A DNA stretch of 50,409 nt from an uncultured Pseudomonadota bacterium (GTDB taxonomy: Bacteria; Pseudomonadota; Gammaproteobacteria; Steroidobacterales; Steroidobacteraceae). Each line of letters opens with the position of its first letter. The first letter of the stretch is position 1. Position numbers and translations under genes: made by a program. The notes below the pieces were generated by a model, which ran no database searches, had not been told where the DNA came from, and saw only the letters and a list, made by a program, of their open reading frames with translations. Below are positions 27,555 to 50,409 of the stretch, in pieces. Where the stretch lies: positions 1-50,409 of the forward strand of contig CAIOHZ010000148.1 in assembly GCA_903858165.1 (NCBI GenBank). The letters are read 5' to 3'.

Positions 27555-27564
27555 GGTGCTCTCC

Positions 27565-28083: not shown

Positions 28084-28166
28084 CTTGGGGGTTCCCGCTT
28101 GGATGGGCACGTGTTGCCACTAATATGCGTCATTTTCCGCAGTAGCCGCGCTGGCTAGTGGGTTGC

Positions 28167-30901: not shown

Positions 30902-30967
30902 GAAGCTACCCCTCGGAACACGGTACTCTCGGCACTACGGCGTCGTGGTGCGCCGTTTTGGCTTACC

Positions 30968-30981
30968 GTAGCAAATGTTAC
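30968..30981. promoter_or_regulatory. Candidate operator in the GMC/ligase divergent gap
   Basis: GTAGCA-AA-TGTTAC is an inverted repeat with five of six arm positions matching. It lies in the 116-base gap between divergent genes and overlaps the A/T-rich stretch with a TATAAA-like box (30982-30987, CTATAAATT). The size suits a TetR-type repressor. No regulator gene of that type is in the window. Confidence 0.4.
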
Positions 30982-31017
30982 TATAAATTCCAGTGCCGGC
31001 ATGGCAAAGGTAGAGCG

Positions 31018-32619
31018 ATGCGGGTCATCGGCGACTTGAGCAAGGCGAATGCACGCCGCCACCCGGACAAGGTGGCGCTGGTGCATGGGGAGCGCTCGCT
31101 CACCTATCTTGACCTCGAATTGCGCTCCAACCGGTTGGCCCATGCGTTGGCTGCCAGCGGGTTGCGGCCCGGTGACCGACTGGGCCTATTGGCCTGCAAT
31201 CATCTCGACTACGCCATCGTCACTCAGGGAGCTGCGAAGGCCGGTGTCCTGTTGGTACCGCTGAATTTTCGCTTGGCGCCTCGTGAACTGGCCATCGTCC
31301 TGCAGGATGCGCAGGTTTCCCTGCTGGTCACCGAGAATGACTTGGCCTCGTTATGGCAGCTGGCCTTGCACGAAGCCGGGCTCGCGTATTTGCCTGTCGT
31401 CTTGCTTGCCGATCAAGCAACGTCCTTGGTCAAAGCGCCGCTGGAGCCAGCAGCCACCTCGGCGGCGCGTTGGGCGGGGGCACGCCAGCTTGGCGATTGG
31501 CTAACAGCATTCCCCGAGACCCCGCCCAACCTTGAAGTCGATCCCGAGTCACCTTGCGCCATCATGTACACCAGTGGCACCACGGGGACGCCCAAGGGTG
31601 TGTTGGTGCCACACCGCGCGTACTTTCGCATGTACCTCGGCACAGCCATGGAAACCGGCCTGTCCCGGGACGACCGCTACCTCATGGCAGTGCCGATGTT
31701 TCATGCGGCCGGGCTCAATCTCATGCTCCACCAGTGCTTGTTCATGGGCGCTATGGGGGTCATTCACCGCGGTTCGCTGGACCCGTTACACCTGTTCGCT
31801 CTCATTGAAGCGGAGCGGCTGAGCATGGCGGTCTTGGTGCCTACGGTCATCGGGTTGCTCGCGCGCCATCCACATCGGCACGCTTTCAATCTGTCGTCCT
31901 TGCGCACCGTCTTTTACGGCTCCATGCCCATGCCGGCAGCGGTGCTCGCGGCGGCCCGCGAAGCGTTCCCTGAAGTGGAGTTTCACCAGATCTATGGTTC
32001 GACCGAGTCGGGGTTGCTAGGCGTGTTGCCGTGGTCTGACCACGCCACCCACGCCCACTGCACTGGACGCGAGGCCTTGTATAGCCATCTGCGTATCGTC
32101 GATGCCGCCGGTGCAGAGGTGGCGGATGGAGCCGTAGGCGAGGTGTTGGGCGCAGCCGCTGGCGGTATGCTCGCCTATTGGAACAACGCTGCTGCCACTG
32201 CGCAGCGTTTGCGCGACGGTTGGATTCACACCGGCGATCTCGCGCGACGTGAGGGCGGGGGCTACTTTACGTTGGTGGGCCGTGTCGAAGAGCTCATCAT
32301 CTCCGGTGGCGAGAACATTCATGCCACGGAAGTCGAACATATCCTAGCCAGCCACATGGCCGTACGCGAGGTGGCGGTGTTCGGCGTTCCCGATGAAAGC
32401 TATGGCGAGTTGGTTCATGCCGCCGTCGTCTTGCACGCGGGTGCTAAAGCCGATGAAGTCGCGCTCGACACCCATTGCCGTTCGCAGCTCGCCGCTTACA
32501 AGCGCCCACGCGCCTACCATTTTCTGGAAGCGTTGCCACGCAATGCCAGCGACAAAGTGCGCAAGGCCGCACTCCGTCAGGCGGCGGTGTCCGCTGTCGG
32601 TACTGGAGAGATGGAATGA
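31018..32619 (+). CDS. Acyl-CoA/aryl-CoA synthetase (AMP-forming)
   Basis: Adenylate-forming ligase of 533 residues that activates a carboxylic acid with ATP and CoA. Motifs in order: YTSGTTGTPKGVLVPH (P-loop), YGSTESGLLG, GWIHTGDLARREGGGYFTLVGRVEELIISGGENIHATEVE, and a C-terminal Lys in NASDKVRKAALR. No signal peptide. The ATG at 31018 has AAAGG/GTAGAG upstream; a frame extension of 20 codons has no support. The stop overlaps the ATG of the flavoprotein gene (ATGA). The neighbours (flavocytochrome, GMC dehydrogenase, racemase) point to an aromatic or terpenoid side-chain acid as substrate, but the binding pocket cannot be read here. Confidence 0.9.
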   Translation: MRVIGDLSKANARRHPDKVALVHGERSLTYLDLELRSNRLAHALAASGLRPGDRLGLLACNHLDYAIVTQGAAKAGVLLVPLNFRLAPRELAIVLQDAQVSLLVTENDLASLWQLALHEAGLAYLPVVLLADQATSLVKAPLEPAATSAARWAGARQLGDWLTAFPETPPNLEVDPESPCAIMYTSGTTGTPKGVLVPHRAYFRMYLGTAMETGLSRDDRYLMAVPMFHAAGLNLMLHQCLFMGAMGVIHRGSLDPLHLFALIEAERLSMAVLVPTVIGLLARHPHRHAFNLSSLRTVFYGSMPMPAAVLAAAREAFPEVEFHQIYGSTESGLLGVLPWSDHATHAHCTGREALYSHLRIVDAAGAEVADGAVGEVLGAAAGGMLAYWNNAAATAQRLRDGWIHTGDLARREGGGYFTLVGRVEELIISGGENIHATEVEHILASHMAVREVAVFGVPDESYGELVHAAVVLHAGAKADEVALDTHCRSQLAAYKRPRAYHFLEALPRNASDKVRKAALRQAAVSAVGTGEME

Positions 32620-34127
32620 ACCTTGAGCGTGTGCTGCCTCCGGGTGTTGGTGCGCGCACCTTCGATGTCGCTTTGGTGGCGCTGCGCGCCGTGGTCGGCG
32701 AAGCTCATGTCATCGCCGACGCCGAAGGACTGGTGCCCTATGGCCGCTTGATGCTGCCAGCCGAAGATTTCAACCATCAGCCCAGTGGCGTTGTGGCGCC
32801 CGCTTCTGTCGAAGAAATCCAAGCGATACTAAAAATCTGCGTGCATGCCCAAATCCCCCTGTGGACCGTTTCCACGGGGCGCAATTTTGGCTACGGCTCC
32901 GCGGCACCTGCCACGCGTGGGCAGATGGTGTTGGATTTGCGGCGCATGAACCGAATTCTGGAGGTGGATGCCGAGTTGGGCACAGCGCTGGTGGAGCCGG
33001 GCGTTACCTACCAGCAACTGCAGGACCACTTGCGCGCTCAGGGTATTCCACTATGGCTGGATTTTCCCGCACCGGGTCCGTTAGTCAGCCCCATGGGCAA
33101 TACGCTTGAACGTGGCGGTGGCCTCACGCCCTACGGCGACCACTTTGCGAACAGTTGCGGCATGGAAGTGGTGCTGTCGGATGGCACGTTACTGCGCACT
33201 GGCATGGGTGGTGTAAAAGGGACCAACACTTGGCAAGCCTTCAAGTATGGCTACGGGCCTTATCTGGATGGCTTGTTCACGCAGTCCAACTACGGCGTTG
33301 TTACCAAGCTCGGCCTGTGGTTGATGCCGGCGCCACCGGCGCACCGGACCTTCATGGTGCAGTGGCACCGCGACGATGACCTCGCTCGCGCCATCGATAC
33401 CATTCGTCCGCTGCGGCTCACCAACGTCATTCCGAATTTTGGCGTACTCGCCAATGCCACGCTGGTGCTTACCGGGCCGTGTCGGCGCGCCGAACTCTAT
33501 GACGGGCCGGGTGCCATTCCACAAGCCGTGGTAGAAAAAGCTGCCCGTGAACGTGGCTTGCCGCCGTGGGTCTATCTATTCTCGCTTTATGGGCGTCAGG
33601 AACAGATTGATTTAGATACGCCCTTCGTGACGCGTGAATTCGAGAAAGCCGGCGCCACGGTCATTCCGAACATACACGACCCCATGCAGTCGAACGAATT
33701 GTCGCTGCAGACTTTTTCCATCTTCAACTGGACCGGCGGCGGAGGGCTCGTTTGGTTCTCGCCTGTGGCGCCGACGCGGGGCGCTGACTGTGCGCTCCAG
33801 ACACAATTGGCGCGCGAAGTCATGGGGCGCTACGGCATCGACTTCATGACAGGGATGACGATCAATGGACGCGAAACCCTGAATGTGATGCCCATGGTCT
33901 ACGACCGCAGCGACGCCGCGAAGACGTTGGCAGCCCGCCGTTGCTACCACGAGCTTATTGATGTGTTCGCAGCGGCTGGCTATGGCTTCTACCGCACCGG
34001 CATCGGCTTCATGGACCACGTGGCTGCAGTGCACGGTGAGGCGAACCGCGCTGTGGCACAGCGTTTGAAGCACGCGCTCGACCCGGCTGGAATTCTGGCG
34101 CCCGGCAAGTCGGGGATTCATCCATGA
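32616..34127 (+). CDS. FAD-linked oxidase, p-cresol methylhydroxylase / eugenol hydroxylase flavoprotein subunit type
   Basis: Vanillyl-alcohol-oxidase family flavoprotein of 503 residues. The PCMH-type FAD domain shows GVVAPASVEEIQAILKIC, STGRNFGYGSAAPATRG, VLDLRRMNRILEVD, VEPGVTYQQLQDHL and SPMGNTLERGGGLTPYGDH. The C-terminal cap has NWTGGGGLVWFSPVAPTRG and ends LKHALDPAGILAPGKSG. Together with the adjacent cytochrome c it matches the two-subunit flavocytochromes that hydroxylate 4-alkylphenols at the benzylic carbon using water, passing electrons to heme. No signal peptide is seen on this chain, although the partner has one; in characterised enzymes the complex is periplasmic. ATGA overlaps at both ends couple it to the ligase and the cytochrome. 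Confidence 0.88.
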   Translation: MNLERVLPPGVGARTFDVALVALRAVVGEAHVIADAEGLVPYGRLMLPAEDFNHQPSGVVAPASVEEIQAILKICVHAQIPLWTVSTGRNFGYGSAAPATRGQMVLDLRRMNRILEVDAELGTALVEPGVTYQQLQDHLRAQGIPLWLDFPAPGPLVSPMGNTLERGGGLTPYGDHFANSCGMEVVLSDGTLLRTGMGGVKGTNTWQAFKYGYGPYLDGLFTQSNYGVVTKLGLWLMPAPPAHRTFMVQWHRDDDLARAIDTIRPLRLTNVIPNFGVLANATLVLTGPCRRAELYDGPGAIPQAVVEKAARERGLPPWVYLFSLYGRQEQIDLDTPFVTREFEKAGATVIPNIHDPMQSNELSLQTFSIFNWTGGGGLVWFSPVAPTRGADCALQTQLAREVMGRYGIDFMTGMTINGRETLNVMPMVYDRSDAAKTLAARRCYHELIDVFAAAGYGFYRTGIGFMDHVAAVHGEANRAVAQRLKHALDPAGILAPGKSGIHP

Positions 34128-34447
34128 GGACCAACTCGCTACGCCACGTACTGGCACCGGTGACACTGCGGGTGTGGCTCTGCTCAATCGTAGCGCTGGC
34201 ACCCAGCGCCAATGCACAGCAAGTAGTGCCATTATCCAGCCCGGCGGCTGTTTGGCGTGCTAGTTGTGGTTATTGTCATGAGCACGGCTTGGGCCCTGTC
34301 TTGTTCGGGCATTCCTTGCCAGCGGTGGCTATTGCGGCGGTGGTTCGGAACGGCGCGAGAGGCATGCCCGCGTTCCATCCTGCGGAAATTAGTCCGGCGG
34401 AGTTGTCTGCTCTGGCGGCGTGGGTGAGCGCGCAACCAGCGCGCTGA
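34124..34447 (+). CDS. Cytochrome c subunit of the flavocytochrome
   Basis: Small c-type cytochrome of 107 residues with a signal peptide (about residues 1-32, ending ANA|Q). CGYCH is the heme attachment motif and [10 protein letters not shown] supplies the likely distal Met. Size and position just after a PCMH-type flavoprotein identify it as the electron-accepting subunit (PchC-like). Its ATG overlaps the flavoprotein stop. The last 59 bases overlap, in convergent orientation, the 3' end of the histidine kinase gene on the other strand. Confidence 0.88.
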
Positions 34448-39060: not shown

Positions 39061-41277
39061 ATGTCCACATCCGCCCGTCCTGTCTTTTCTCGTGCCCTGC
39101 AGGGTGCCGTTGCTGCTGCCCTGCTGCTCGCCGCAGCCGGCGCGTCCGCGCAACAGGCAGCCAGCGCTGGCCTAGAGGAAATTATTGTTACCGCCACCAA
39201 GAAGGCGAACTCCATCAACAGCACGGCGGCCGCCATTTCGGCTGTCACGGCAGACCAGCTCGGTGCCGGTGGCATCGAAGACATCTCCGACCTCGCCACG
39301 GCGGTGCCTAATCTCTCCGTCGGTGACCAGTTCGGTGTGAACCGCACCTTCATCCGCGGCGTCGGTATGACCAGCATCGACCTCGGTGCCGATGGTGCCG
39401 TGGCCTTCCTGCAGGACGGCGCCATGATTGCGCGTCCGTCCGCCCAGCTGTCCGGCTTTTTCGACCTGGAACAGGTGGAAGTGCTGCGCGGCCCGCAAGG
39501 CACCACCTACGGCCGCGGTGCTACCGCCGGCGTGGTGAACCTCGTTACTCGCAAGCCCGGCGACACCCTGAACGGCTACGGCCGCTTGACGGTCGGCAAC
39601 TTCGCTGTCAAAACCTTTGAAGGTGCGGTAGGTGGCCCGGTGTCCGACACCGTTGGCGCCCGCGTGGCCGTGAAGTGGGACCAGCGTGATGGCTATGGCA
39701 AGAACCTGTTCACCGGCAGCCAAATCGACGACCGCGACGCGGTAGCCGTGCGCGCCATGGTGTCTTTCGCCCCCAGCGATGATGTGAAGGCGACGATCAT
39801 TGCCGACTACTTCAAGGAAGACGACAACAACTACGCCTTCCACTACTTCGGTACGACCGGCACGCCGGAAGACGGCCTCGGGCACAACCTGCTCGGCGGC
39901 AAGACCATTTTCGACTACTACGCTACGCGTGGACAGGCAGCGGACCTGCGCAACATCTACTCTGACCAAGAGCCCATCAACCAGCGCGACGGCACCGGCC
40001 TGACTGCGCTGGTGGATTTCAAGCTCGGCGAATGGGACGTGAAGTCCGTGACCGCCTGGCGTGATTTCCAGCGCTTCACGCGTGATGACCTCGACGTCTC
40101 CGACGTGAACATGTTCGGGCAGAACAACTACGACGAGGACAGTAACTCCTGGAGTCAGGAATTCACCTTCAGCCGCACGGCTGGCAAGTGGGACCTGCTC
40201 GGTGGTGTCATGTACTTCCACGAGAAGCTGTTCGGCTCCGTGAAGGTGCCGCTGACCAACCTCGGCTTGCTCTTCGGTGCACCTGCCAACCTGTTCAACA
40301 ACGGCAACTACTGGCAGTTGGGAACGGTGAAGACGGATGCGTACGGCGCCTTCTTGCAGGGTACCTACCCCATCAACGACCAGCTGAAGCTCACGGTGGG
40401 TGCCCGCTACAACCACGAGAAGCGCGAGGGCGCCGGTTCCTTCATCTTCGACGCACTGGGCGCGAATGTGCCGACCGACAAGGGCAAGTCGTGGGATGCC
40501 GTCACGCCGCGCTTCAACCTCGAGTACACCACCGAGGGCGGGCAGCTGTGGTACGGCAGCCTGACGCGCGGCTTCAAGTCGGGCGTCATCAACGTCGGTA
40601 GCCAGAATGCTGTCATCGACCCGGAATACGTGTGGAGCATCGAGGCCGGTGTTAAGGGCCGTGCGGCTGGTGGCAATGTGGAATACCGTGCTGCAGTGTT
40701 CAACTACAAATACTCGGACCTGCAGGTCGGCTTCGTCGGTGCGGACAGCGTGGTGACCACGGTCAACGCCGCTTCGGCCCGCAACTATGGTCTCGAACTC
40801 GAATTGCGCGCCAAGTTGGCGGAAGGGCTCAGCGCAGACTTCTACGCCACCCTGCTGTCGGCGAAGTACACGGACTTCACCACGGGTGACTACCGTCAGG
40901 GGTTCCGTCAGGTTGACGTATCGGGCAACCACCTGCAGAACGCACCGACTAACACGGCCTTTGCTGGCTTGACGTACGAGGTGCCGGTGGGCTCGGGTAC
41001 GTTGGCTCTGCATGCCGAAGCGGCCTACCAGGGCACGGTGTACTTCACCGAGTTCAACAATGCGGATGCGGTGCAGGGTAGCTATACCATCGGCAACGTG
41101 GCGGCAACGTGGACCGACAGCGGCGAGCATTGGAGCGTGGGCGGTTGGGTGAAGAATGTGGGCGATGAGTTCATCATCACCAACAACATCATCACCGCGC
41201 CGCTCTACGGCAGCATCCGGGTAGGCTCGGTGGCACCGCCGCGCACCTACGGCGTGACGGTTGGTTACAAGTTCTAA
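39061..41277 (+). CDS. TonB-dependent outer-membrane receptor
   Basis: The protein is 738 residues with a signal peptide (ending GASA|Q). EEIIVTATKKA is the TonB box. The plug domain (about 50-160) contains AISAVTADQLGAGGIEDISDLATAVPNLSV, RTFIRGVG and LEQVEVLRGPQGTTYGRGATAGVVNLVTRKP. The remainder is a 22-strand-type barrel ending in VTVGYKF with the terminal Phe required for assembly. The plug style is that of the sphingomonad/steroid-degrader family used for hydrophobic organic substrates rather than siderophores, but that is inference. It heads the P450/SDR operon and is separated from the first P450 by 44 bases. Confidence 0.93.
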   Translation: MSTSARPVFSRALQGAVAAALLLAAAGASAQQAASAGLEEIIVTATKKANSINSTAAAISAVTADQLGAGGIEDISDLATAVPNLSVGDQFGVNRTFIRGVGMTSIDLGADGAVAFLQDGAMIARPSAQLSGFFDLEQVEVLRGPQGTTYGRGATAGVVNLVTRKPGDTLNGYGRLTVGNFAVKTFEGAVGGPVSDTVGARVAVKWDQRDGYGKNLFTGSQIDDRDAVAVRAMVSFAPSDDVKATIIADYFKEDDNNYAFHYFGTTGTPEDGLGHNLLGGKTIFDYYATRGQAADLRNIYSDQEPINQRDGTGLTALVDFKLGEWDVKSVTAWRDFQRFTRDDLDVSDVNMFGQNNYDEDSNSWSQEFTFSRTAGKWDLLGGVMYFHEKLFGSVKVPLTNLGLLFGAPANLFNNGNYWQLGTVKTDAYGAFLQGTYPINDQLKLTVGARYNHEKREGAGSFIFDALGANVPTDKGKSWDAVTPRFNLEYTTEGGQLWYGSLTRGFKSGVINVGSQNAVIDPEYVWSIEAGVKGRAAGGNVEYRAAVFNYKYSDLQVGFVGADSVVTTVNAASARNYGLELELRAKLAEGLSADFYATLLSAKYTDFTTGDYRQGFRQVDVSGNHLQNAPTNTAFAGLTYEVPVGSGTLALHAEAAYQGTVYFTEFNNADAVQGSYTIGNVAATWTDSGEHWSVGGWVKNVGDEFIITNNIITAPLYGSIRVGSVAPPRTYGVTVGYKF

Positions 41278-41278
41278 T

Positions 41279-41306
41279 CGACGGGTTCTGACCGACGAGT
41301 TTTGAC
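41279..41306 (+). repeat. Two-copy 14-bp tandem repeat after the TonB receptor
   Basis: CGACGGGTTCTGAC is followed directly by CGACGAGTTTTGAC, with two differences. It fills most of the 44-base spacer before the P450 gene. No hairpin is formed. Meaning unknown. Confidence 0.45.
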
Positions 41307-41321
41307 CTAAGGGGTACTTGC

Positions 41322-42587
41322 ATGAGCAGCAGCGTGGCCGAAGACACTTATCGCTTCGACCCCGCTGACCAAGCGCTGGTGCGAGACCCTTACCCCACCT
41401 ACCGTCGCTTGCAGGCCATTCCCGGCTTGCATGCGGCGGCAGGCGGTTACCATGTGGCCACGCGTCACTTGGATTGCCGGCAAGTGCTGGCCAGCCCGGC
41501 CTTCGGCCAGGGCAATTTCATCCGCAACATCCAGTTGTTCTACGGCCCGGACTTCGACGTGCTTGGCCAGAGTTCCTATCGCTGGCTGTCGGAAGTCTTC
41601 TTGATGCAAGACCCGCCGCACCACACGCGGCTGCGCAAGCTGGTCAGTTTTGCGCTGACGCCAAAGCGTATCGCGGACATGGCGCCGCGCATTCAGGCCT
41701 TGCAGGATGGCCTAGTTGACGCTTGGCTCGCCAAGGGTGGTACGGGCGATGTGGTTTACGACCTCGCTTATCCCTTGCCTGTGCTGGTCATGTTTGACTT
41801 GCTGGGCGTGGAAGAAAGCGAACGCACGCCGGACGCCATGGCGAAGCTGACGCGGGCCATTGCCGAGGCGTTTCTGGTGTTTGAAACGCGCGTGCTGAAC
41901 GCTGAAGAATTGGCACTGGCGAACCGCCAGATGGATTACCTCTACGAGTATTTCGGCGCACTGTTCGACCGGCGCAAGGCCGACCCGCGCGACGATTTGA
42001 CCTCGGCGTTGGCTTCGGTCCGCGACGAAAGTGGCGATGCGTTGTCGCACCGCGAGATGGTCACGATTGTCATCGCCATGTTCGGTGCGGGCTTCGAAAC
42101 CACCGCGCATCTCATCAGCAATGGGCTGTATACGCTGCAGCGCTACCCGGAACAATGGGCATTGCTGGTGGCAAACCCGGCGCTGGCAACTGGCGTGGTG
42201 GAAGAAGTCTTGCGGTTCGAGTCTTCGCTGCAGGCCACCTACCGCACGGCGTTGGAAGACACGCTGGTGGATGGCACTTACGTGAAAGGCGGCGAGCGGG
42301 TGCTGTGTATCGTGGCCGCGGCCAACCGCGACCCTTCCATGTTTCCGGAGCCCGACCGCTTCGATATCACCCGCAAGGATGTCCGTATCCAGTCCTTCGG
42401 TGGTGGTATTCACCACTGCATTGGTCAGGCCTTGGCGCGGCTGGAAGGGCGTATCGCGTTCGAGACGCTCGCTCGGCGGCTGCCCGGCATCGCTGTGAAG
42501 CTCGACAGCCCACCTTGGCGCCCCGGGTTCCTGTTCCGCGGGCTTTCCACTCTGCCCGCCACCACACTTGAAATCGCCCACCGATAA
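41322..42587 (+). CDS. Cytochrome P450 (class I bacterial type)
   Basis: Heme-thiolate monooxygenase of 421 residues, soluble, no membrane anchor. DPYPTYRRL opens the fold, MQDPPHHTRLRKLVSFALTP is the C-helix, FGAGFETTAHLI is the I-helix oxygen-activation motif with the Glu/Thr pair, EEVLRFES is the ExxR motif, and FGGGIHHCIGQALARLE holds the heme-ligating Cys. All key residues are intact. AAGGGG lies eight bases before the ATG. It needs a ferredoxin and reductase; none is encoded in the window. Place in the operon right after the TonB receptor suggests it hydroxylates the imported compound first (inference). Confidence 0.92.
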   Translation: MSSSVAEDTYRFDPADQALVRDPYPTYRRLQAIPGLHAAAGGYHVATRHLDCRQVLASPAFGQGNFIRNIQLFYGPDFDVLGQSSYRWLSEVFLMQDPPHHTRLRKLVSFALTPKRIADMAPRIQALQDGLVDAWLAKGGTGDVVYDLAYPLPVLVMFDLLGVEESERTPDAMAKLTRAIAEAFLVFETRVLNAEELALANRQMDYLYEYFGALFDRRKADPRDDLTSALASVRDESGDALSHREMVTIVIAMFGAGFETTAHLISNGLYTLQRYPEQWALLVANPALATGVVEEVLRFESSLQATYRTALEDTLVDGTYVKGGERVLCIVAAANRDPSMFPEPDRFDITRKDVRIQSFGGGIHHCIGQALARLEGRIAFETLARRLPGIAVKLDSPPWRPGFLFRGLSTLPATTLEIAHR

Positions 42588-42646
42588 CGGACAATGCAGC
42601 AGCGCATACTTCGTTGCGCGGGTTACGGTCGCGGAAGATTACCTGC

Positions 42647-43438
42647 ATGGATCTCGGTCTCAAGGGCAAGGTGGCATTGGTCACTGCGGGCAGCCAAGGC
42701 ATAGGCTTGGCAACGGCGCATGCGCTGGCCCGGGAAGGCGCCCTGCTGGCGCTTTGCGCGCGTGATGCGGCTGGTTTGACCGCTGCTGCGGCGGCCATCG
42801 AGGCCGCCCATGGGCAGCCGGTCTTGGTGCTCCCTTGCGATCTCGCCGACGAAACGCAGATTGGCCCTATGGTCGACACGGTACTGGCGCGCTACGGCAC
42901 CGTTCATGTGTTGGTGAACAACGCCGGCGGCCCGCCGCCGGGCCCCTCGGCGCGGCTTACCGAAGCCGACTGGCAGCGGGCCTTCCAGCTCACTCTCATG
43001 TCCGCCGTTAGGACCACCAATGCCGTGTTGCCGGCCATGCGCGCACAGCGCTGGGGGCGTATCGTCAATGTTTCGTCGTATTCGGTGAAGCAGCCTATCC
43101 CGGACCTTATGCTGTCGAACAGTCTCCGCCTTGCCGTGGCCGGCTGGGCCAAGACGCTGGCCGCTGAAGTGGCGCCGGACAACGTGCTGGTGAATACGGT
43201 GGCGCCCGGTTGGACGCTCACCGACCGTGTCGGGCAAATGCTCGCGGCGCGTGCCGGCCAGCGACAGTGTGAAGAAGCCGCGGTGGCAGCGGAAATACTG
43301 GCGCAAGTGCCCTTGGCCCGCTTCGCGGACCCCGCCGAGATTGCCGACGTTATCGTTTTCCTGGCCTCACAACGCGCCAGTTACCTCACAGGTACGGTAT
43401 TGCCCATAGACGGCGGTATTGTGCAGGGAGCCCTTTGA
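42647..43438 (+). CDS. SDR family protein with non-canonical active site
   Basis: Short-chain dehydrogenase/reductase fold, 263 residues. TAGSQGIGLATAHALA is the cofactor motif and NNAGGPPPG the central motif. VSSYSVKQPIPDLMLSNSLRLAV occupies the catalytic region: the Ser is present but the expected Y-x-x-x-K reads S-x-x-x-R (in LSNSLR). Such 'VKQPIPxLxLSN' proteins are a recognised branch of the family, and their catalytic mechanism may differ. I chose the ATG at 42647 (MDLGLKGKVALV); an upstream extension of 11 codons lacks similarity. It follows the P450 by 59 bases and its TGA shares a base with the next ATG (TGATG). Confidence 0.85.
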   Translation: MDLGLKGKVALVTAGSQGIGLATAHALAREGALLALCARDAAGLTAAAAAIEAAHGQPVLVLPCDLADETQIGPMVDTVLARYGTVHVLVNNAGGPPPGPSARLTEADWQRAFQLTLMSAVRTTNAVLPAMRAQRWGRIVNVSSYSVKQPIPDLMLSNSLRLAVAGWAKTLAAEVAPDNVLVNTVAPGWTLTDRVGQMLAARAGQRQCEEAAVAAEILAQVPLARFADPAEIADVIVFLASQRASYLTGTVLPIDGGIVQGAL

Positions 43439-44442
43439 TGTCCTGGCAAGCGGCACGAATCATCGACTTCCACGCTCACGTAGTGCTGGAAGAAACTTTC
43501 GGGGCCGCGGGTCAGCATGGTCCGGAACTGACGGTGGCGGAGGATGGTCGCCCGTTGTTTCGCGCCGGTGGTTATCGGCTGCATGGCGTGCGTTACCGGG
43601 GCAGTCCCTTCATGGATGCCGAAGTGCGCCTCGCTGCCATGGACCGTGCCGGCATCGACTGCCAGGTGCTGTCGCCCAACCCCTTGACGTATTTTCATTT
43701 CATCGATGTTCCGTCGGCGGTGGCTTTCTGTCGTCGCCACAACGATGTGCTGGCAGCACTGGTACGCCGTTACCCTGGCAGACTCGCCGGCCTCGCCGCA
43801 TTGCCGATGCAATCGCCAGCCGCCGCCGCTGAGGAACTGCGCCGCGCAGTCGGTGAACTTGGACTTTGGGGTGCGGGCATCGGTACCGAGTTCGGTACCC
43901 GTCTCGATTCGCCGGCGCTGGATGACTTCTACCGCTGCTGTGCAGCGCTGGATGTGCCGCTGTACTTGCACCCGTCGCCTGCGGGTATCGACGGCCCAGC
44001 GGCGTTTCCGCCGTTGTCGCATTACGACTTGGACCTGCTCATTGGGTTCGCTGCACAGGAAACCATTGCTGTCGGCACGCTCATCTATGGCGGTGTCGTC
44101 GACCGTCATCCGGACTTGCGCTTGTGCGTCAGCCATGGTGGTGGTGCCATCGCCTTGCTGGCGGGACGCTTCAGTGAAGCTGCCGCGAAGCGTCCTTGGG
44201 CCTCGGCGGAACTACGTGAGCCTGGCGCCTTCATGCAGCGCTTGCAGAGGCTTTGGTTCGACAACCACTTACACAGCGACGACGCCGTCGAATTGCTGGA
44301 AAAGCAGGTGGGCCGTGAGCGCCTCGTGCTGGGAACGAATTTCGCTGGCTGGGACCAGCCCGCCAGTGGCGGCAAGCTGGAAGCGCCCCTCTGGCTGGCT
44401 GACAACGCGCGCCGCTTGCTGGGCCGAAAGGACTGGACGTGA
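43438..44442 (+). CDS. Amidohydrolase family 2 protein (ACMSD-like)
   Basis: TIM-barrel metal enzyme of 334 residues. IIDFHAHVV supplies the HxH metal pair at the N-terminus, LYLHPSPAG the next His, and LCVSHGGGAI and the later NFAGWDQ (where ACMSD has a metal Asp motif GTDYP) the rest; the final Asp is less certain here. Family 2 members are decarboxylases (ACMSD, gamma-resorcylate decarboxylase) or lactonases/hydrolases. In an oxidative catabolic operon a decarboxylation or ring-lactone hydrolysis step is plausible but inferred. It overlaps the SDR stop by one base and the next start by four (GTGA). Confidence 0.85.
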   Translation: MSWQAARIIDFHAHVVLEETFGAAGQHGPELTVAEDGRPLFRAGGYRLHGVRYRGSPFMDAEVRLAAMDRAGIDCQVLSPNPLTYFHFIDVPSAVAFCRRHNDVLAALVRRYPGRLAGLAALPMQSPAAAAEELRRAVGELGLWGAGIGTEFGTRLDSPALDDFYRCCAALDVPLYLHPSPAGIDGPAAFPPLSHYDLDLLIGFAAQETIAVGTLIYGGVVDRHPDLRLCVSHGGGAIALLAGRFSEAAAKRPWASAELREPGAFMQRLQRLWFDNHLHSDDAVELLEKQVGRERLVLGTNFAGWDQPASGGKLEAPLWLADNARRLLGRKDWT

Positions 44443-45797
44443 ACGCCACCCTCATCATCAACGGTAGCGTCATCGATGGTACCGGCGCTGCCCCGCGCGT
44501 CGAGTCGGTGCTCATCATTGGCGAGAAGATTGCTGCCACCGGTGCGGCGGCCGAAGTACAGGCCGCGCAAATGCCGGGTGTGTACACGATGGACGTGGCC
44601 GGCTGCACGGTCATGCCCGGTCTTATCGACGGCCATTGCCATATCAGTTTTGATGAACCGAACTCGAACGACGAGTTGTTCTTCCACCGTCGGCACGCGC
44701 TGGCCGCCATTACGGCGGCGCGTAATGCGCGACGCGTACTCCAATCCGGCGTCACCAGCATCATGGACGCCGACTCCATCTTCGAGATTGGCGTGGACCT
44801 TCGCGATGCGATCGAAGCCGGTATCACCACCGGCCCACGCATCTCCACCGGCGGCTATGCGCTGTGGACTAGCGTTGGTGGTACGGCAGGCCGGCTTATC
44901 CCGGACCGTGGCGTCATGGGTTACGGCAAGGTCGTTGCCGGTCGCGACGAGATCATTGCCGAGGTACGCCGCCAGATCAAAGGCGGCGTGGACTGGATCA
45001 AGGTGCATGTTACCGGGTTGGTACCGAGGCATCCGCTAGGTGGCGAAGTGCAGAGCTGGTCGCGCGAGGAACTGCGCACGGTCTGCGATGCCGCCCATGA
45101 ACTTGGCATCCCAGTGCTCGGGCATTGCCGCGGCGCTGGTGCCATTGTCGATTGCGTTGAAGCTGGCATGGATCTCATCTTGCACGCCACCTTGATGGAT
45201 GACCGCGCGCTCGAGGTGCTGGTGAAACACCGCACGCCGGTGATGCCGGTGTTTACCTTCTTGGCCAATCTCGCCGACTACGGTGCCCGCATCGGTGCAG
45301 ATGACACCGTGCGTGCCATGTTCCGTCGCGAGATTGCTGACAGTGCGCAGATGCTGCGCCGCGCTTACGACGCTGGCGTGCCGCTGCTCTGTGGCAGCGA
45401 ATCGGGGTTCTCCATCACGCCCTACGGCGACTGGCATTACCGCGAGATGGAAGTGTTCGTGCGCGAACTCGGCCTGACGCCCTTGCAGGCCATCCAGTGC
45501 TCAACCCAGGCCAATGCCTTTGCCATGCGAATGGCCGGCAAGGTGGGCGAAGTGTTGCCGGGGCGCTTGGCGGACTTGCTGATTGTGGATGGTAATCCGG
45601 CTGCCGACGTCACCGTGCTCGGCGATACGGCTCGCTTGAAGCAAGTACTCCTCGGTGGGCGCAGCATGGACTTGACGCCTGATGCGCCGCGGCGTGATCC
45701 ACCGGGCTGGCGCGTGAGCACTTACGGCGCGCGCTTGGGCAAGGAGGTCGCGGCCGGCGCACCGCCACCGCCGCCGGCGGATTTGACGGAACCATGA
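44439..45797 (+). CDS. Amidohydrolase family 1 protein (imidazolonepropionase-like)
   Basis: Metal-dependent hydrolase of 452 residues. It begins TLIINGSVIDGTGAAP and MPGLIDGHCHISF, the typical beta-sandwich entry with the HxH pair. WIKVHVTG carries a Lys likely to be carboxylated and bridge metals, LGHCRGAGAI and ILHATLMDD give later His ligands, and GRLADLLIVDGNPAADV closes the sandwich. It is probably a cyclic amide, lactone or ester hydrolase; substrate unknown. The C-terminus is Pro-rich (APPPPPADL). The GTG start overlaps the previous stop and its own stop overlaps the next ATG (ATGA). No signal peptide is seen. Confidence 0.87.
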   Translation: MNATLIINGSVIDGTGAAPRVESVLIIGEKIAATGAAAEVQAAQMPGVYTMDVAGCTVMPGLIDGHCHISFDEPNSNDELFFHRRHALAAITAARNARRVLQSGVTSIMDADSIFEIGVDLRDAIEAGITTGPRISTGGYALWTSVGGTAGRLIPDRGVMGYGKVVAGRDEIIAEVRRQIKGGVDWIKVHVTGLVPRHPLGGEVQSWSREELRTVCDAAHELGIPVLGHCRGAGAIVDCVEAGMDLILHATLMDDRALEVLVKHRTPVMPVFTFLANLADYGARIGADDTVRAMFRREIADSAQMLRRAYDAGVPLLCGSESGFSITPYGDWHYREMEVFVRELGLTPLQAIQCSTQANAFAMRMAGKVGEVLPGRLADLLIVDGNPAADVTVLGDTARLKQVLLGGRSMDLTPDAPRRDPPGWRVSTYGARLGKEVAAGAPPPPPADLTEP

Positions 45798-46993
45798 CGA
45801 CCATTCGTCTCGACCGCGTGCCGGATGCACTCGCTGCCCTGCGTAACGAGCATCTTGCGCAGTCGTTGTATGACGAAGGTGCTGTCGTCATGGCGGACAC
45901 CTTGCTCACCTTGCACGGTGATGCGCATCGGCAACGTCGTCTGCTGGAATTCCGCGTCTTCCGGCGCAGCTTTTTCCGTTACTACGAAACCGAGGTCTTC
46001 CCGCGTGCGTTGCAGGAAGTGCTGGGGCCGGTGGTTGCCGGGGGCAGTTGCGACCTCGTGGACTTCGGTTACCGCATCACCATGAACCTCACGGCGGATT
46101 TCGCCGGCATTGACCGGCCGGAGAAGACCGCAGCGGAAACGGCAGCGCTGCTGCGTTTGGTCATGACGTTCAGCGAAGGCGCGACGCTGGTGCATTCCAC
46201 TCGCGACAAGGAAGAAGTGTGCCGCGAAGTACGCGCGGCGCTGACGGAACTCGATGTGCGTTTCCTGCAGCCCTCCATCGCGCGCCGCCAAGCTTTGTTG
46301 GCGCAATTGGAACGTGGCGAAATCACTGAAGAAGAGCTGCCACGCGATGTGCTCACGGTGTTGTTGCGCAACGAGGACCGCCTCGAGTTGCCGCCCGAAG
46401 TGCTGCGTCGCGAAATAGCGTTTTATTTGCAGGCGGGCTCTCACAGCACTGCCAACTCCACTGTCCATGCCATGCACCAACTGTTCTGCTGGATGGCAGC
46501 AACGCCCGGTGGGCGTGAACGCTTGTTGGCGGAGCCGCTGTTCCTGCAACGTTGCGTGCATGAAAGCCTACGCTTGAACCCCGCCAGCCCAGTGTCTTGG
46601 CGTAAGCCCTTGTGCCCGCTGAAGTTGGCGGACGGTACGGCGGTGACACCCGAAGACCGTGTCGAAATCGATTTGTGGACGGCCAACCGTTCGCCGGACA
46701 TTTACGGTACGGACGCGGACCAGTTCAACCCGGAACGCACCGTGGCTGCTGGCCATGAGCCCTTTGGCTTGACGTTTGGCACGGGCGTTCATACTTGCTT
46801 GGGGCGCGATCTCGACGGCGGTCTCCTACCGCGCGCGGGTACCGACCCCGCCAACCATCAATACGGCATCATCACCCTGCTCGCCAGGGCTTTGCTGGAA
46901 GCGGGAGCAATCCCGGATCCAGCGCGGCCACCGGTCAGGGCCACCCACACTGCACGGCCCAATTGGGGCGCTTACCAGGTGACTTTCCCATGA
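45794..46993 (+). CDS. Atypical cytochrome P450, short N-terminus and altered heme end
   Basis: Heme-thiolate protein of 399 residues. HESLRLNP is the ExxR motif, DADQFNPERT the following loop, and FGLTFGTGVHTCLGRDLDGG the heme Cys loop. The C-helix equivalent (LHGDAHRQRRLLEFRVF) begins near residue 40, about 45 residues earlier than in the P450 at 41322, so the usual N-terminal beta/A-helix part is missing. The I-helix reads LQAGSHSTAN, with His-Ser in place of the acidic residue-Thr pair. After the Cys loop the usual A-R-x-E helix is replaced by a Gly/Pro-rich stretch. Such changes occur in P450s acting on peroxides or carrier-bound substrates. ATGA overlaps at both ends. Confidence 0.85.
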   Translation: MTTIRLDRVPDALAALRNEHLAQSLYDEGAVVMADTLLTLHGDAHRQRRLLEFRVFRRSFFRYYETEVFPRALQEVLGPVVAGGSCDLVDFGYRITMNLTADFAGIDRPEKTAAETAALLRLVMTFSEGATLVHSTRDKEEVCREVRAALTELDVRFLQPSIARRQALLAQLERGEITEEELPRDVLTVLLRNEDRLELPPEVLRREIAFYLQAGSHSTANSTVHAMHQLFCWMAATPGGRERLLAEPLFLQRCVHESLRLNPASPVSWRKPLCPLKLADGTAVTPEDRVEIDLWTANRSPDIYGTDADQFNPERTVAAGHEPFGLTFGTGVHTCLGRDLDGGLLPRAGTDPANHQYGIITLLARALLEAGAIPDPARPPVRATHTARPNWGAYQVTFP

Positions 46994-47760
46994 CAGACAG
47001 CACTCCTTCCACTCCGCGCACTGCTTTGGTGACCGGCGGAGCTTTCGGCCTCGGCGCCGCCATCTGCCAGCACGCGGCCCGCGCCGGTTATCGCGTTGCC
47101 GTGCTCGACCTGAAGCTGGAAGACTGCGAGGCCTTGTTGCCGAAGCTCGCGGGTACGGGTCACGTCGCCTTGCAGGCCGACGTCACCGATGAACATCAGG
47201 TCCATGCAGCCTTCGAGAAGCTCGGCGTCACGCCTCACCTCGTCGTCAGCAACGCTGGCATTGTCCGCTTCGGGCCGCTTATCGAGCATTCCATCGACGA
47301 GTTCCGCAAAGCGGTAAACGTCAACCTCATCGGTACGTATATCGTTGACCGCGAGGCTGCCTTGCGCATGAAGACGATCGGTGGTGGCTCCATCGTCAAC
47401 CTCAGCTCCGTCAACGCCATCACTCCGGGCCCTGGCTCCGGTGGCTACCCGGCTTCCAAGGCGGGTGTGGCAAAGCTCACGGAGCACCTGTCGCTGGAAC
47501 TGGGCCAGTTCAATATCCGTGTCAACTGCGTGGCACCAGGGTTCATCGATGGCGGCATGTCGGCGCCTATCTATGCGAATCCCAAGGTGCGCGAACTGCG
47601 TGGCGGCGCGGTGCCGTTGCGTCGTCTCGGTACCGTGGACGACGTGGCCGAAAGCGTCATGTGGCTGGGTTCCGATGCAGCGGCCTACGTTACCGGGCAT
47701 CAGCTGGTAGTGGACGGTGGCCTCGTGCACAGCGCCTTGCTGCATCTGCCGCGCGTCTGA
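46990..47760 (+). CDS. SDR family oxidoreductase
   Basis: Classical short-chain dehydrogenase, 256 residues. TGGAFGLGAAICQHAA is the TGxxxGxG cofactor site, LDLKLED holds the acidic residue that favours NAD, SNAGIVRFGP replaces NNAG, and SSVNAITPGPGSGGYPASKAGV gives the Ser-Tyr-Lys triad. ADVTDEHQV and NCVAPGFIDGGM are typical. It probably oxidises a secondary alcohol produced by one of the P450s (inference). Its ATG overlaps the P450 stop as ATGA. The frame is open upstream within the P450, but that part is not SDR-like. Confidence 0.9.
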   Translation: MTDSTPSTPRTALVTGGAFGLGAAICQHAARAGYRVAVLDLKLEDCEALLPKLAGTGHVALQADVTDEHQVHAAFEKLGVTPHLVVSNAGIVRFGPLIEHSIDEFRKAVNVNLIGTYIVDREAALRMKTIGGGSIVNLSSVNAITPGPGSGGYPASKAGVAKLTEHLSLELGQFNIRVNCVAPGFIDGGMSAPIYANPKVRELRGGAVPLRRLGTVDDVAESVMWLGSDAAAYVTGHQLVVDGGLVHSALLHLPRV

Positions 47761-47791
47761 CCCCAGTGCAATCGCCACGTTGGCCGCAGCG

Positions 47792-48511
47792 ATGAGCCGG
47801 GCAGTCGTTTATCACGGCGGCCCGCGCCATCCGTTTGCGGTCGACGTGCTGGTCGCGCAATTGGCGCAAGCCGGTTTTGTCTGTGAACTGCATGACGACC
47901 TCGACGCAGCCGCCGCCGCTTTAACGGCGACGCCGACGGCGCTGTTCGTGGTCCACGCGCTGCGCTGGACCATGACACAGCATGAAAAATACGCGGAAGA
48001 CCGCCCGCACTGGGGCATGACGCCTTCGCTTATGGCGCGCACGGCTATCACCCGCTACGTACGTGAGGGCGGCGGCTTGTTCGCGCTGCACACCTCGAGC
48101 ATCTGTTTCGATGACTGGCCGGAGTGGGGCGAGTTGCTCGGTGGCCGTTGGGTGTGGGGTCGTTCGCGTCACCCGCTGTATGGCACGGTGGCGGTGTCGC
48201 TGGATGGCACGCACGAACTGGCGGCGGGTCTACCTAACTTCGAATTGCAAGATGAAGCTTATTGCCACCTCGAATTGCAGCCCGAAACGCGCGTGTTCGG
48301 TTGGGTGGAAGCGGCCGATGGTGAGGGCACCACGGGCTTGCAGCCAGCCTGCTGGGTCTACGACTGTGCTGCTGGCCGAGCCGCTTATCTTTCCGTGGGG
48401 CATGATGCCTCGTCGCTGCAACACCCCGTATTGGCGGAACTGACTCATCGCGCAGCGCGCTGGGCCGGACGTCTTCTTCCTACTTCGACTGGAACCCAAA
48501 CGCATGCGTGA
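47792..48511 (+). CDS. ThuA-like domain protein
   Basis: The protein is about 239 residues with the class I glutamine-amidotransferase-like fold of ThuA proteins: AVVYHGGPRHPFAVD at the start, FVVHALRWTM, YVREGGGLFALHTSSICF, GGRWVWGRSRHPLYG and ELQDEAYCHLEL, then AAYLSVGHDASSLQHPVL. The GGGLFALHxxS segment occupies the nucleophile elbow but has no Cys, as usual for this family. The start is ATG at 47792, with a TTG four codons upstream as alternative. ThuA proteins occur in sugar and aromatic catabolic clusters; their biochemical role is mostly unassigned. It lies 31 bases after the SDR and its stop overlaps the next start by eight bases. Confidence 0.8.
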   Translation: MSRAVVYHGGPRHPFAVDVLVAQLAQAGFVCELHDDLDAAAAALTATPTALFVVHALRWTMTQHEKYAEDRPHWGMTPSLMARTAITRYVREGGGLFALHTSSICFDDWPEWGELLGGRWVWGRSRHPLYGTVAVSLDGTHELAAGLPNFELQDEAYCHLELQPETRVFGWVEAADGEGTTGLQPACWVYDCAAGRAAYLSVGHDASSLQHPVLAELTHRAARWAGRLLPTSTGTQTHA

Positions 48512-49265
48512 TATTCACGGAATGTCGGTGCTCATCACCGGCGGTGGCTCCGGCCTTGGTGAAGCCGTAGCGAGACTGTTCGCTGCACGTGGCGCTTACG
48601 TCACCATTTCCGGGCGTCGTCCGGAAAAGATCCAAGCGGTGGCCGCTTCCATTGGCCCGCTGTGCCATGCGGTGGTGGGCGACGTGGCCAACGCCGCGGA
48701 CCGCGAACAGATGGTGGCGGCGGCGGTGGCGCATGGCGGCAAGTTGGATGTGCTCGTGAACAACGCGGGCAATATGTACCGGCAAGCTGTGGCCGAATAC
48801 ACCGAAGAGGTGCTCCGCGAGGCTTTCGAGGTGAATGTCATCGGCGGCATGATGTTGGCGAGCAAGGCCTTGCCGCATCTGGAAGTCACCCGTGGTTCCA
48901 TCCTCTTCATTGGCTCCGTACATACACGCCGCGCTTACCCGGGCGCCACGCCGTATGCCGCCACCAAGGCCGCGCTAGAAGGCCTCACGCGAGTGATGGC
49001 CGCGGAACTGGGCCCGAAGCAAGTCCGCGTGAATTGTGTGGTGCCCGGTGCCGTGGCCACGGAAATTAACGTGCGCGCGGGGCTGGTAACCGAGGACGGC
49101 GTGGCAGCGCGCTACGCACGTCTGGCAGGCGATCACGCCCTGCAGCGTATTGGCACTGCCGAAGAAGTGGCCGAGGGCATCGAATATCTGGTGCGTGCCG
49201 AATGGGTCACTGGCGTCGCACTCGATGTGGATGGCGGGTTGGGGCTCGGTGTTTCAAGCTTTTGA
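48504..49265 (+). CDS. SDR family oxidoreductase
   Basis: Classical short-chain dehydrogenase, 253 residues. ITGGGSGLGEAVARLFA is the cofactor site, SGRRPEKI has Arg-Arg after the second strand, which favours NADP, and NNAGNMYRQ, IGSVHTRRAYPGATPYAATKAA give the central motif and the Ser-Tyr-Lys triad. VNCVVPGAVATEI follows. It overlaps the ThuA gene by eight bases (ATGCGTGA) and ends the plus-strand operon, eight bases before the convergent Dabb gene. It is the third SDR of the operon; the three differ clearly in sequence, so they are not recent duplicates. Confidence 0.9.
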   Translation: MRDIHGMSVLITGGGSGLGEAVARLFAARGAYVTISGRRPEKIQAVAASIGPLCHAVVGDVANAADREQMVAAAVAHGGKLDVLVNNAGNMYRQAVAEYTEEVLREAFEVNVIGGMMLASKALPHLEVTRGSILFIGSVHTRRAYPGATPYAATKAALEGLTRVMAAELGPKQVRVNCVVPGAVATEINVRAGLVTEDGVAARYARLAGDHALQRIGTAEEVAEGIEYLVRAEWVTGVALDVDGGLGLGVSSF

Positions 49266-49273
49266 GCCGCGCT

Positions 49274-49564
49274 TCAATAGTCGAAGTCGAGCGCCATCAC
49301 TTCCCCGTCTTTGACCAAGCGTGAAGCCACCGCAACATGGGCCGGGTGAACTGCATAGGCCGCGAGTGCATCGCGGTCCGTCAGCAACACCATCATTCCA
49401 TGCGTGAAGCCGCGAGCGCGTTCGGTGAAGTTCGTGCCTAGCGTCAGCTCGAGAATACCGGGGACATGGTCAGGCAGCGACCGCAAGCCAGCCAGGTGCT
49501 CCTCGATTGCCGCCGGCGTGGTGCCTTCGTTGAACTTGATCCAAACCATGTGATTCACGGGCAT
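49274..49564 (-). CDS. Dabb (stress-responsive alpha/beta barrel) domain protein
   Basis: Small protein of 96 residues starting MPVNHMVWIKFNEGTT. The pattern of a ferredoxin-like half barrel with LRSLPDHVPGILELTLGTNF, RARGFTHGMMVLLTDRDAL and YAVHPAHVAVASRLV is the Dabb domain, whose members include plant olivetolic acid cyclase and bacterial dimers of unknown function. The AGGAG site lies about six bases before the ATG. It is the last gene of a minus-strand set after the VOC protein (26-base gap) and is convergent with the SDR operon. A lyase/cyclase or ligand-binding role in the same pathway is inference. Confidence 0.85.
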   Translation of the reverse strand: MPVNHMVWIKFNEGTTPAAIEEHLAGLRSLPDHVPGILELTLGTNFTERARGFTHGMMVLLTDRDALAAYAVHPAHVAVASRLVKDGEVMALDFDY

Positions 49565-49590
49565 ATGCTTTCTCCTCTCTGGTTGCTGTT

Positions 49591-50121
49591 TCAGCCTGCC
49601 GGGTCTACTTCCATCCGCAAGGTCCGGCCATCCCACTCGGCCGCGGCGCGCGCCACCTGTGCATAGAGCGCAGTGAGGCCCGGGCCGGGTGGATAAACTT
49701 CGATCATGTGTCCGAGCAGTGGCCGCGTATCCACGTAAGACGCGCCGCGGCCGGAAGCCGTGCGCAGTTCGGTGACCACCGGAAACCCCTGCGCGGCATA
49801 GTGTGCCAGCGTTGCTGCGTAGTCTGCCGGCATGACCGCCACATGGTGGAACCCTTCTTCGTGCGCCGCGAAGGCGTCGCGAAAAGCCGAAGGCGCAGCG
49901 TTGTGCTGCATCACCAGCTCTACTTGCAGGTCGCCCGCTTGCACATAGGCTGCCGAGATATCCAGTGAAGCCGGTTGGCCGCGATAGAACACTTGCGCCA
50001 GTTGGATATGCCGCCGCACGAGGAAGGGCCCGAGCCCCCACAGCGCATGAAACCGGTCGATAGCCTCGTCGATATCAGCGACGTGGTAAGCGTTCTGCAG
50101 AATTCGTTGTGGAGTGGTCAT
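49591..50121 (-). CDS. VOC (glyoxalase/epimerase fold) family protein
   Basis: The protein is 176 residues with two beta-alpha-beta-beta-beta units of the vicinal oxygen chelate superfamily: QNAYHVADIDEAIDRFHALWGLGPF, then DLQVELVMQHN, and in the second half EEGFHHVAVMPADYAATLAHYAAQGF and DTRPLLGHMIEVYPPG. His in AYHVAD, Glu in QVELV, His in FHHVAV and Glu in HMIEVY fit the four metal positions. It resembles methylmalonyl-CoA epimerase-like Glyoxalase_4 members found in degradation clusters. Its ATG overlaps the MFS stop as ATGA. Confidence 0.85.
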   Translation of the reverse strand: MTTPQRILQNAYHVADIDEAIDRFHALWGLGPFLVRRHIQLAQVFYRGQPASLDISAAYVQAGDLQVELVMQHNAAPSAFRDAFAAHEEGFHHVAVMPADYAATLAHYAAQGFPVVTELRTASGRGASYVDTRPLLGHMIEVYPPGPGLTALYAQVARAAAEWDGRTLRMEVDPAG

Positions 50122-50409
50122 GGGTGTCCCTTGGTTGGAGGCTGCCGACCGAGCAGAGGCAACAGGACTGCGCCCACCACCAGCAGCGCAGCAGCGACGT
50201 GAAAGCTAGCGGTATAGCTGGCAGTACGCTCATACAGCCTCGCGAACAGCATGGGCGCGACACCGCCGGCCACGGCCAGCAGGGCGTACAGCACGGCGTA
50301 AATCTTGGCGTAATGGAGCGGGCCGAAATAGCGGGCCGTAAGGTACGCCATGAGGTCCAGTTCTGCACCGGCTGCTAGCCCGATGAGACTGCAGGCCACC
50401 AGGATGAGC
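50118..50409 (-). CDS. MFS transporter, C-terminal part (5' end outside window)
   Basis: The frame is open to the window edge. About 97 C-terminal residues are visible, with GLAAGAELDLMAYLTARYFGPLHYAKIYAVLYAL across a loop and two or three membrane helices, including HVAAALLVVGAVLLPLLG at the end. The segment LTARYFGPLHYAKIYAV matches the ends of oxalate/formate antiporter-like MFS proteins. It probably imports a catabolic substrate or exports a product across the inner membrane, in an operon with the VOC and Dabb genes (ATGA overlap with VOC). Confidence 0.75.
   Translation of the reverse strand, partial: LILVACSLIGLAAGAELDLMAYLTARYFGPLHYAKIYAVLYALLAVAGGVAPMLFARLYERTASYTASFHVAAALLVVGAVLLPLLGRQPPTKGHP

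Follow-up and report, generated by a model that had tools for sequence, protein, structure and literature searches.

Here we focus on a conserved gene cassette near the right end of a 50,409-base window, which is the entire contig C148 of an uncultured gammaproteobacterium of the Steroidobacteraceae (genome G000; 3.38 Mb in 307 contigs). The core of the cassette consists of an amidohydrolase (AMH2), a divergent cytochrome P450 (P450b), two short-chain dehydrogenases/reductases (SDR2 and SDR3) and a ThuA-fold protein (ThuA). It usually comes with a further P450b paralogue (b1), and within the family a limonene-epoxide-hydrolase-like protein (LEH) accompanies it too. Five observations form the basis of our reading: the gene content, its conservation, the insertion site, the co-occurrence with a Baeyer-Villiger monooxygenase (BVMO) and a RutA/SfnG-like flavin monooxygenase (LLM), and the conserved active-site residues. 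We give an even chance to the view that the cassette, together with a locus on contig C264 of the same genome, breaks down a natural alicyclic, terpenoid- or steroid-like ring compound by oxidative opening.

Genes were called from open reading frames (ORFs) and Pfam profiles. This recovered each gene named in an earlier note on this DNA and bore out its account of a TonB-dependent receptor (TBDR), two P450s, three SDRs and two amidohydrolases running in one direction. The features between 39061 and 50409 are:

39061..41277, plus strand: TBDR (Pfam Plug and barrel), an older neighbour paired with P450a, outside the inserted cassette
41322..42587, plus strand: P450a, a canonical bacterial P450, PikC-like by sequence, I-helix AGFETT
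42588..42646, no strand: left border of the cassette, between P450a and SDR1; in G002, P450a is followed by methylmalonyl-CoA mutase
42647..43438, plus strand: SDR1, an atypical SDR with SNSLR at the YxxxK position (LSNxxR in the family)
43435..44442, plus strand: AMH1, Amidohydro_2, ACMSD-like, candidate decarboxylase or C-C/lactone hydrolase
44439..45797, plus strand: AMH2, Amidohydro_1, prolidase/ochratoxinase group, Glu321 at the metal-Asp position
45794..46993, plus strand: P450b (b2 type), a divergent short P450, I-helix AGSHST
46990..47760, plus strand: SDR2, classical YxxxK
47792..48511, plus strand: ThuA, GATase1-like (Pfam 5.2e-21; predicted fold)
48504..49265, plus strand: SDR3, classical YxxxK
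49274..49564, minus strand: Dabb (A/B barrel) protein (Pfam)
49591..50121, minus strand: VOC (Glyoxalase_4) protein (Pfam)
50118..50408, minus strand: the last 96 aa of an MFS carrier truncated at the contig end (Pfam MFS_1 1.9e-6, under the curated cut-off)

Between 42647 and 49265, where near-universal overlap of adjacent genes had been described, five of the six junctions do overlap, four by 4 bases and ThuA/SDR3 by 8; a 31-base gap between SDR2 and ThuA is the sole non-overlap. The ThuA gene was missing from the earlier gene list. Its predicted model (pLDDT 89.4) finds ThuA-like proteins in the PDB as structural matches.

Two units of different age meet at the left border. The cassette, from SDR1 to SDR3 with the reversed Dabb, VOC and MFS genes, is inserted between P450a and a methylmalonyl-CoA mutase gene, and the TBDR-P450a pair is an independent unit, older in the genus (g1) than the cassette. 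Among 200 genomes of the family, P450a was detected in seven, namely the four genus members met (G000-G003, 87-98% identical) and three members of genus g19. One of the four, G002, gave no match to P450b or AMH2 at the chosen cut-offs and offers an empty site: its TBDR (80% identical to that of the window) and P450a align with the window up to 42544, after which comes the mutase gene on the opposite strand. In G003, one contig reads TBDR-P450a-SDR1-AMH1 and then ends, and a second begins in the MFS gene, continues with P450b1 and LEH and reaches the same mutase as in G002, with an 83% match to G002 across 2.1 kb. The cassette is placed between P450a and the mutase because of this empty site and because the G003 contigs reach both borders; its middle is spanned by no single contig in any genus member. 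In G001, TBDR to AMH2 are present with proteins 95-98% identical, and the contig stops just inside P450b. Against the 314-aa MFS reading of G929, the window piece covers residues 223-314 and the G003 piece residues 1-179, which leaves the two contig ends about 43 MFS residues apart if both genomes are alike. The same-genus contig of G003 therefore puts b1 and LEH just beyond the right end of the window. No transposon or attachment-site ends were recognised at the cassette borders on inspection by eye. P450a was considered as a replacement for b1 and dropped, since it is present in cassette-free G002.

The earlier note had instead drawn one operon from the TonB receptor onward. In that picture, TBDR to SDR3 would be one transcription unit that evolved as one pathway, with P450a and P450b performing two hydroxylations. 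The genes do share a strand with short gaps (44 bp between TBDR and P450a, 59 bp between P450a and SDR1), and SDR1 directly follows P450a in G000, G001 and G003, such that the pair may be co-transcribed with the cassette today. A common origin is nevertheless improbable: P450a occurs in G002 and in the three g19 genomes, which have no P450b match at the cut-off, and no close relative of P450a was seen next to the cassettes examined outside genus g1, the best P450a-like matches being 27-30%.

The search that the earlier note had proposed, neighbourhood conservation with the atypical P450 as query, was carried out in three sets: public species genomes, plasmids and whole-genome samples. Public species genomes yielded 16 P450b loci: one gammaproteobacterial, one alphaproteobacterial (L025), one of Sphingomonadaceae, two of Actinomycetota and 11 (L026-L036, titled Rhodobiaceae, OCS116, PS1, MED-G09, Hyphomicrobiales or Alphaproteobacteria) with one common gene order. 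Fourteen plasmid records matched, four of them over at least 80% of the query (Novosphingobium THN1, two of Streptantibioticus cattleyicolor and Paracoccus versutus). In the even samples P450b was found only in the genome under study (class 1/369, phylum 1/398), and in the family sample in 10 of 200 genomes. The core itself is present in Gammaproteobacteria, in the 11 PS1/OCS116/Rhodobiaceae-type alphaproteobacterial loci, in one Sphingomonadaceae genome and on one Novosphingobium plasmid; two Actinomycetota contigs carry it in part, with gaps, in a different gene order and with no ThuA seen. The claim that these enzymes belong together is thus upheld, as the core recurs in a second class and partially in a second phylum. 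Of 30 stretches with a relative of P450b, 25 also have AMH2, mostly adjoining it, so the arrangement is more than chance; the count includes near-duplicates and one genome split across two contigs. AMH2 is absent from L039, L046, L049, L050 and L060, of which L039, L046 and L060 end early at contig ends.

The commonest order is AMH2-b1-b2-SDR2-ThuA-SDR3, and SDR1, AMH1, LEH, VOC, MFS and CoxL lie near this core in variable order, not all at each locus. In G929, G808 and G859, reversed VOC and MFS genes precede b1-LEH-SDR1-AMH1-AMH2, followed by b2 where the contig continues. The earlier assignment of the convergent VOC and MFS genes to the enzymes holds, as both stand at the same locus in these three genomes and in the Sphingomonadaceae locus L038; VOC relatives 62-71% identical occupy the equivalent position in L038, L051, L053 and L055. 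Dabb matches adjoin b1 in G025, and in G808 a MarR regulator gene separates MFS from b1. Gene-distance comparison gave r of 0.40-0.92 over 28 gene pairs with 8-13 loci each (14 near-duplicate or lone loci excluded), values that are compatible with co-inheritance and do not prove it. Taken across these lineages, the cassette has probably spread horizontally; it is larger and more mobile than the earlier note described.

Several loci deserve mention in their own right. On the S. cattleyicolor megaplasmid (L049, 15001-16176), a P450 44.5% identical to P450b has no further cassette gene recognised within about 15 kb on each side, and the P. versutus relative likewise stands without a cassette. In marine PS1/OCS116-type loci (L028 1096-5528 and relatives), the cassette is preceded upstream by one or two PQQ-type dehydrogenases that include a cytochrome c domain, and contigs that extend far enough downstream show CoxL there. 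Near the cassette of G870 (L056 4359-5324) lies a 2Fe-2S reductase-like protein (Fer2, DmmA-like N and NAD-binding domains), a possible electron donor for the P450s. The cassette does not imply microcystin use by Novosphingobium sp. THN1. A passage of PMC10205998 offers a general remark on P450 abundance in marine Acidimicrobiales.

Further functions of the proposed route, esterases and another P450 among them, are found on a second contig, with contents assigned by similarity and Pfam labels taken from representatives:

Contig C264, Cox part: CoxE, MoxR, CoxM, CoxS, CoxG, CoxL
Contig C264, remainder: PQQ-type dehydrogenase, BVMO, SDR, SnoaL, thiolase, P450c, CoA ligase, two hydrolases, NmrA-like protein

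A C264-type block directly adjoins the cassette in G025, as do BVMO, Abhydrolase_3 and CoxL in G022, and in G808 an Old-Yellow-type reductase (ene-reductase) directly follows SDR3. Within the 200 family genomes, where a match to P450b (cut-off 1e-40) or AMH2 (1e-120) defined a cassette genome, BVMO orthologues (1e-200) occur in 7 of 11 cassette genomes and 1 of 189 others (p 1.1e-9), and LLM (1e-110) in 6 of 11 and 0 of 189 (p 5.6e-9). Because related genomes are not independent, the values after collapsing to genera are safer (p 2e-3 for BVMO, 4e-4 for LLM). The BVMO is of type I and closest to phenylacetone (PAMO) and steroid monooxygenases. For LLM, the best solved match is RutA, and among NCBIfam models SfnG scores highest, yet under the cut-off of every model listed. 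In CoxL, the motif AYRGAGR, which we take to mark form II Cox-type molybdenum hydroxylases, is conserved in 14 alignment rows (here and below, rows with at least 75% coverage and a per-gene minimum identity); we call it only Cox-type, not CO dehydrogenase, because the G005 protein falls under the NCBIfam cut-off for the latter. The LEH gene, which lies beside b1 in relatives and outside the window, matches limonene epoxide hydrolases in Pfam (4.9e-24) and in the PDB (5.6e-24). Its TERxD and WRDYFD motifs, presumably the Arg/Asp/Asp triad of limonene-1,2-epoxide hydrolase, are kept in nine rows aligned to the solved enzymes; by fold and triad it is a predicted member of that group.

Several of the cassette enzymes do not conform to the active sites of their families. 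P450b has a Pfam P450 match of 9.6e-14, the heme motif F[GS]xGxHxCxG in 48 of 51 rows, and C335, E257 and R260 invariant in 21 rows; its predicted model (pLDDT 92.3) reaches Z scores up to 36.0. The modelled fold, heme cysteine motif and ExxR identify it as a P450, and b1 is one by sequence. However, the I-helix acid is Asp or Glu in none of the 51 b1 and b2 rows, His, Gln, Phe or Lys standing instead: b2 reads AG[SA]HST in 25 of 26 rows, P. versutus being the exception, and of the 25 b1 rows 12 carry His, 12 Gln and one Phe. The acid-alcohol pair (A/G)Gx(D/E)T is frequent and not universal in P450s, so its absence leaves the membership of P450b intact. The nearest solved folds, P450BioI, a CYP134A1 orthologue and CalO2, align over 343-350 residues at Z 34.7-36.0 with 18-22% identity (P450BioI Z 36.0 at 18%), residue 1 of the model falling at about their residues 33-36, and P450b differs from all three in having no acid at the I-helix position. 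The fold searches did not point to a substrate, as the nearest P450s act on unlike substrates. In a tree of 37 rows including P450a (eight loci dropped beforehand), the b1/b2 split has weak overall support (59/69) and appears in 56% of bootstrap trees, although a clade of 15 b1 rows is supported (97/87).

In SDR1, LSNxxR replaces YxxxK across 17 rows, and the nearest solved relative likewise has no Tyr and Lys there in the alignment; judged by these residues, SDR1 falls in an SDR subgroup that lacks the Tyr-Lys pair and lies outside the classical SDRs, unlike SDR2 and SDR3. AMH1 is closest to ACMSD (8.7e-37), with HxH, HP, SHGGG and GTNFxGWD conserved in 13 rows. ACMSD acts on a tryptophan metabolite, decarboxylating 2-amino-3-carboxymuconate semialdehyde; no kynurenine-pathway genes were noticed near AMH1. 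A role as a diiron oxygenase is unlikely, since the amidohydrolase-related oxygenases (SfbO 8sm6, PtmU3; described in part of PMC10811679) match it far more weakly than ACMSD of PF04909. AMH2 conserves HxH, Lys, His and His, which with Asp we take to be the metal and catalytic set of prolidase-like amidohydrolases. Its Asp position, in alignment with 2qs8, is Glu321, whereas the nearest solved relative has Asp; Glu is found in at least 22 of 23 rows and is invariant in a 14-row set. A plain dipeptidase was dropped for AMH2 in view of Glu321 and an NCBIfam score of 211 against a cut-off of 500.

From these parts we infer an order of reactions. TBDR and MFS would import the substrate, and P450b, normally with its paralogue b1, would hydroxylate or epoxidise an alicyclic, terpenoid- or steroid-like compound. 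The LEH-like enzyme may then open the epoxide, SDR2 and SDR3 would oxidise alcohols to ketones, and ene-reduction would follow where the Old-Yellow-type reductase is present. Ring opening could proceed through Baeyer-Villiger oxidation by BVMO and lactone hydrolysis, through metal-dependent hydrolysis or decarboxylation by AMH1 and AMH2, or through both, with CoA ligation and thiolysis completing the route. The window thus does not hold the complete opening pathway that the earlier note proposed: b1 and, in the family, LEH are absent from it, and BVMO, molybdenum hydroxylase, CoA ligase and thiolase are on C264.

In its outline the cassette belongs to a broad and familiar type of system, aerobic ring-opening catabolism, of which it is an uncharacterised example; what is new is the set of genes it combines, the range of classes it occurs in and the divergent pair of P450s. 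As outlined in part of PMC4097962, the limonene/carveol route of Rhodococcus erythropolis DCL14 runs from monooxygenase, epoxide hydrolase, alcohol dehydrogenase and enone reduction to BVMO, lactone hydrolase and CoA activation. An LEH-family gene, BVMO and esterase are shared, here or in relatives; the cassette differs by its entry through the P450 pair, and that part of the source offers no counterpart to the two amidohydrolases, ThuA or the Cox-type molybdenum hydroxylase. The pdc progesterone cluster of Caenibius tardaugens, set beside the cassette by description, combines a BVMO with a luciferase-like monooxygenase (EGO55_13845, EGO55_13860), and the main text of its paper names neither P450 nor amidohydrolase. 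Flavin monooxygenases, SDRs and P450s, the same enzyme classes as here, were proposed in part of PMC5395668 to open the rings of recalcitrant alicyclic matter in SAR202; as presented there, that scheme is a genome-wide inference from paralogue families, in contrast to a conserved cassette, and the main text names no amidohydrolase. A literature search, largely without subscription papers, showed no described cluster with this gene set among the papers listed, in agreement with the earlier note.

Degradation of an alicyclic ring compound is favoured by the recurrence of the core, its enrichment in the family, the empty site, the BVMO and LLM co-occurrence, the relationships of BVMO and LEH, the ene-reductase of G808, and the parallel with the limonene/carveol route. 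Other observations weigh against it. At the cut-offs used, BVMO was not detected in 4 of 11 cassette genomes (G003, G005, G870, G929) nor LLM in 5 of 11 (G000, G001, G870, G899, G929), and neither is therefore universal. Genome G000 itself has no P450b1, its best match being P450b at 48%, and no LEH match at all, which means that both were either lost or lie inside an assembly gap. In G808 and G859 no SDR2 stands between b2 and ThuA, and the flanks available for the 11 PS1/OCS116-type loci showed neither AMH1 nor LEH. Among the window ORFs around the P450s, neither a ferredoxin nor a reductase was noticed, and no clear role is apparent for ThuA. The reading is drawn from sequence, and the two amidohydrolases and the RutA-like monooxygenase would fit a nitrogen compound equally.

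The last point leads to the alternative of an alkaloid, amide or lactam as substrate, with AMH2 cleaving an amide, LLM a C-N bond and the molybdenum hydroxylase hydroxylating beside nitrogen. The nearest solved relatives of AMH2 (dipeptidases, arginine carboxypeptidase, amide hydrolases, ochratoxinase and phenylurea hydrolase) agree with this, as do the RutA match of LLM and its restriction to cassette genomes in the family sample. However, Glu in place of Asp makes function by analogy unsafe for AMH2, the NCBIfam ranking of LLM favours SfnG without passing any listed cut-off, and BVMO, LEH, ene-reductase and the Abhydrolase_3 esterase are explained less well; we consider a nitrogen compound unlikely. 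A detoxification or specialised-metabolite biosynthesis cluster is more doubtful still: although P450-SDR-VOC-MFS sets are generally known from biosynthetic and resistance loci too, inspection of the flanking ORFs by eye turned up no synthase for terpenes, polyketides or peptides, the neighbours are TBDR, CoA ligase and thiolase, and presence in marine assemblies of 1.1 and 1.4 Mb (possibly incomplete) makes a growth role likelier.

Contig C148 has a second variable stretch at 26646-34431 (about 7.8 kb; NmrA-like, GMC oxidoreductase and AMP-dependent acyl-CoA ligase). It is missing in G001 between conserved flanks, G002 likewise has no matching DNA between similar flanks, and G003 matches its right part from 29160, where the G003 contig starts.

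For a catabolic cassette, the recurrence of the core across proteobacterial classes, partly in Actinomycetota and in the two small marine assemblies suggests a substrate common in water. A bolder version, which we rate as less likely than not, is that P450b1 and P450b2 are obligate partners in a new P450 family whose proton relay uses His/Gln and no acid. Together with AMH2 and its altered metal site, SDR1 and its lost Tyr-Lys pair, and ThuA, they would open the ring of an abundant natural product of aquatic habitats by a route not yet described, common to small-genome ocean bacteria, lake sphingomonads, actinobacteria and this gammaproteobacterium. The acid-free P450s and the Glu-for-Asp amidohydrolase pose questions of enzymology in their own right. 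Naming the substrate would turn P450s, amidohydrolases and SDRs that are now unassigned into annotated steps, and would supply a genetic marker for the turnover of a so far untraced ring compound.

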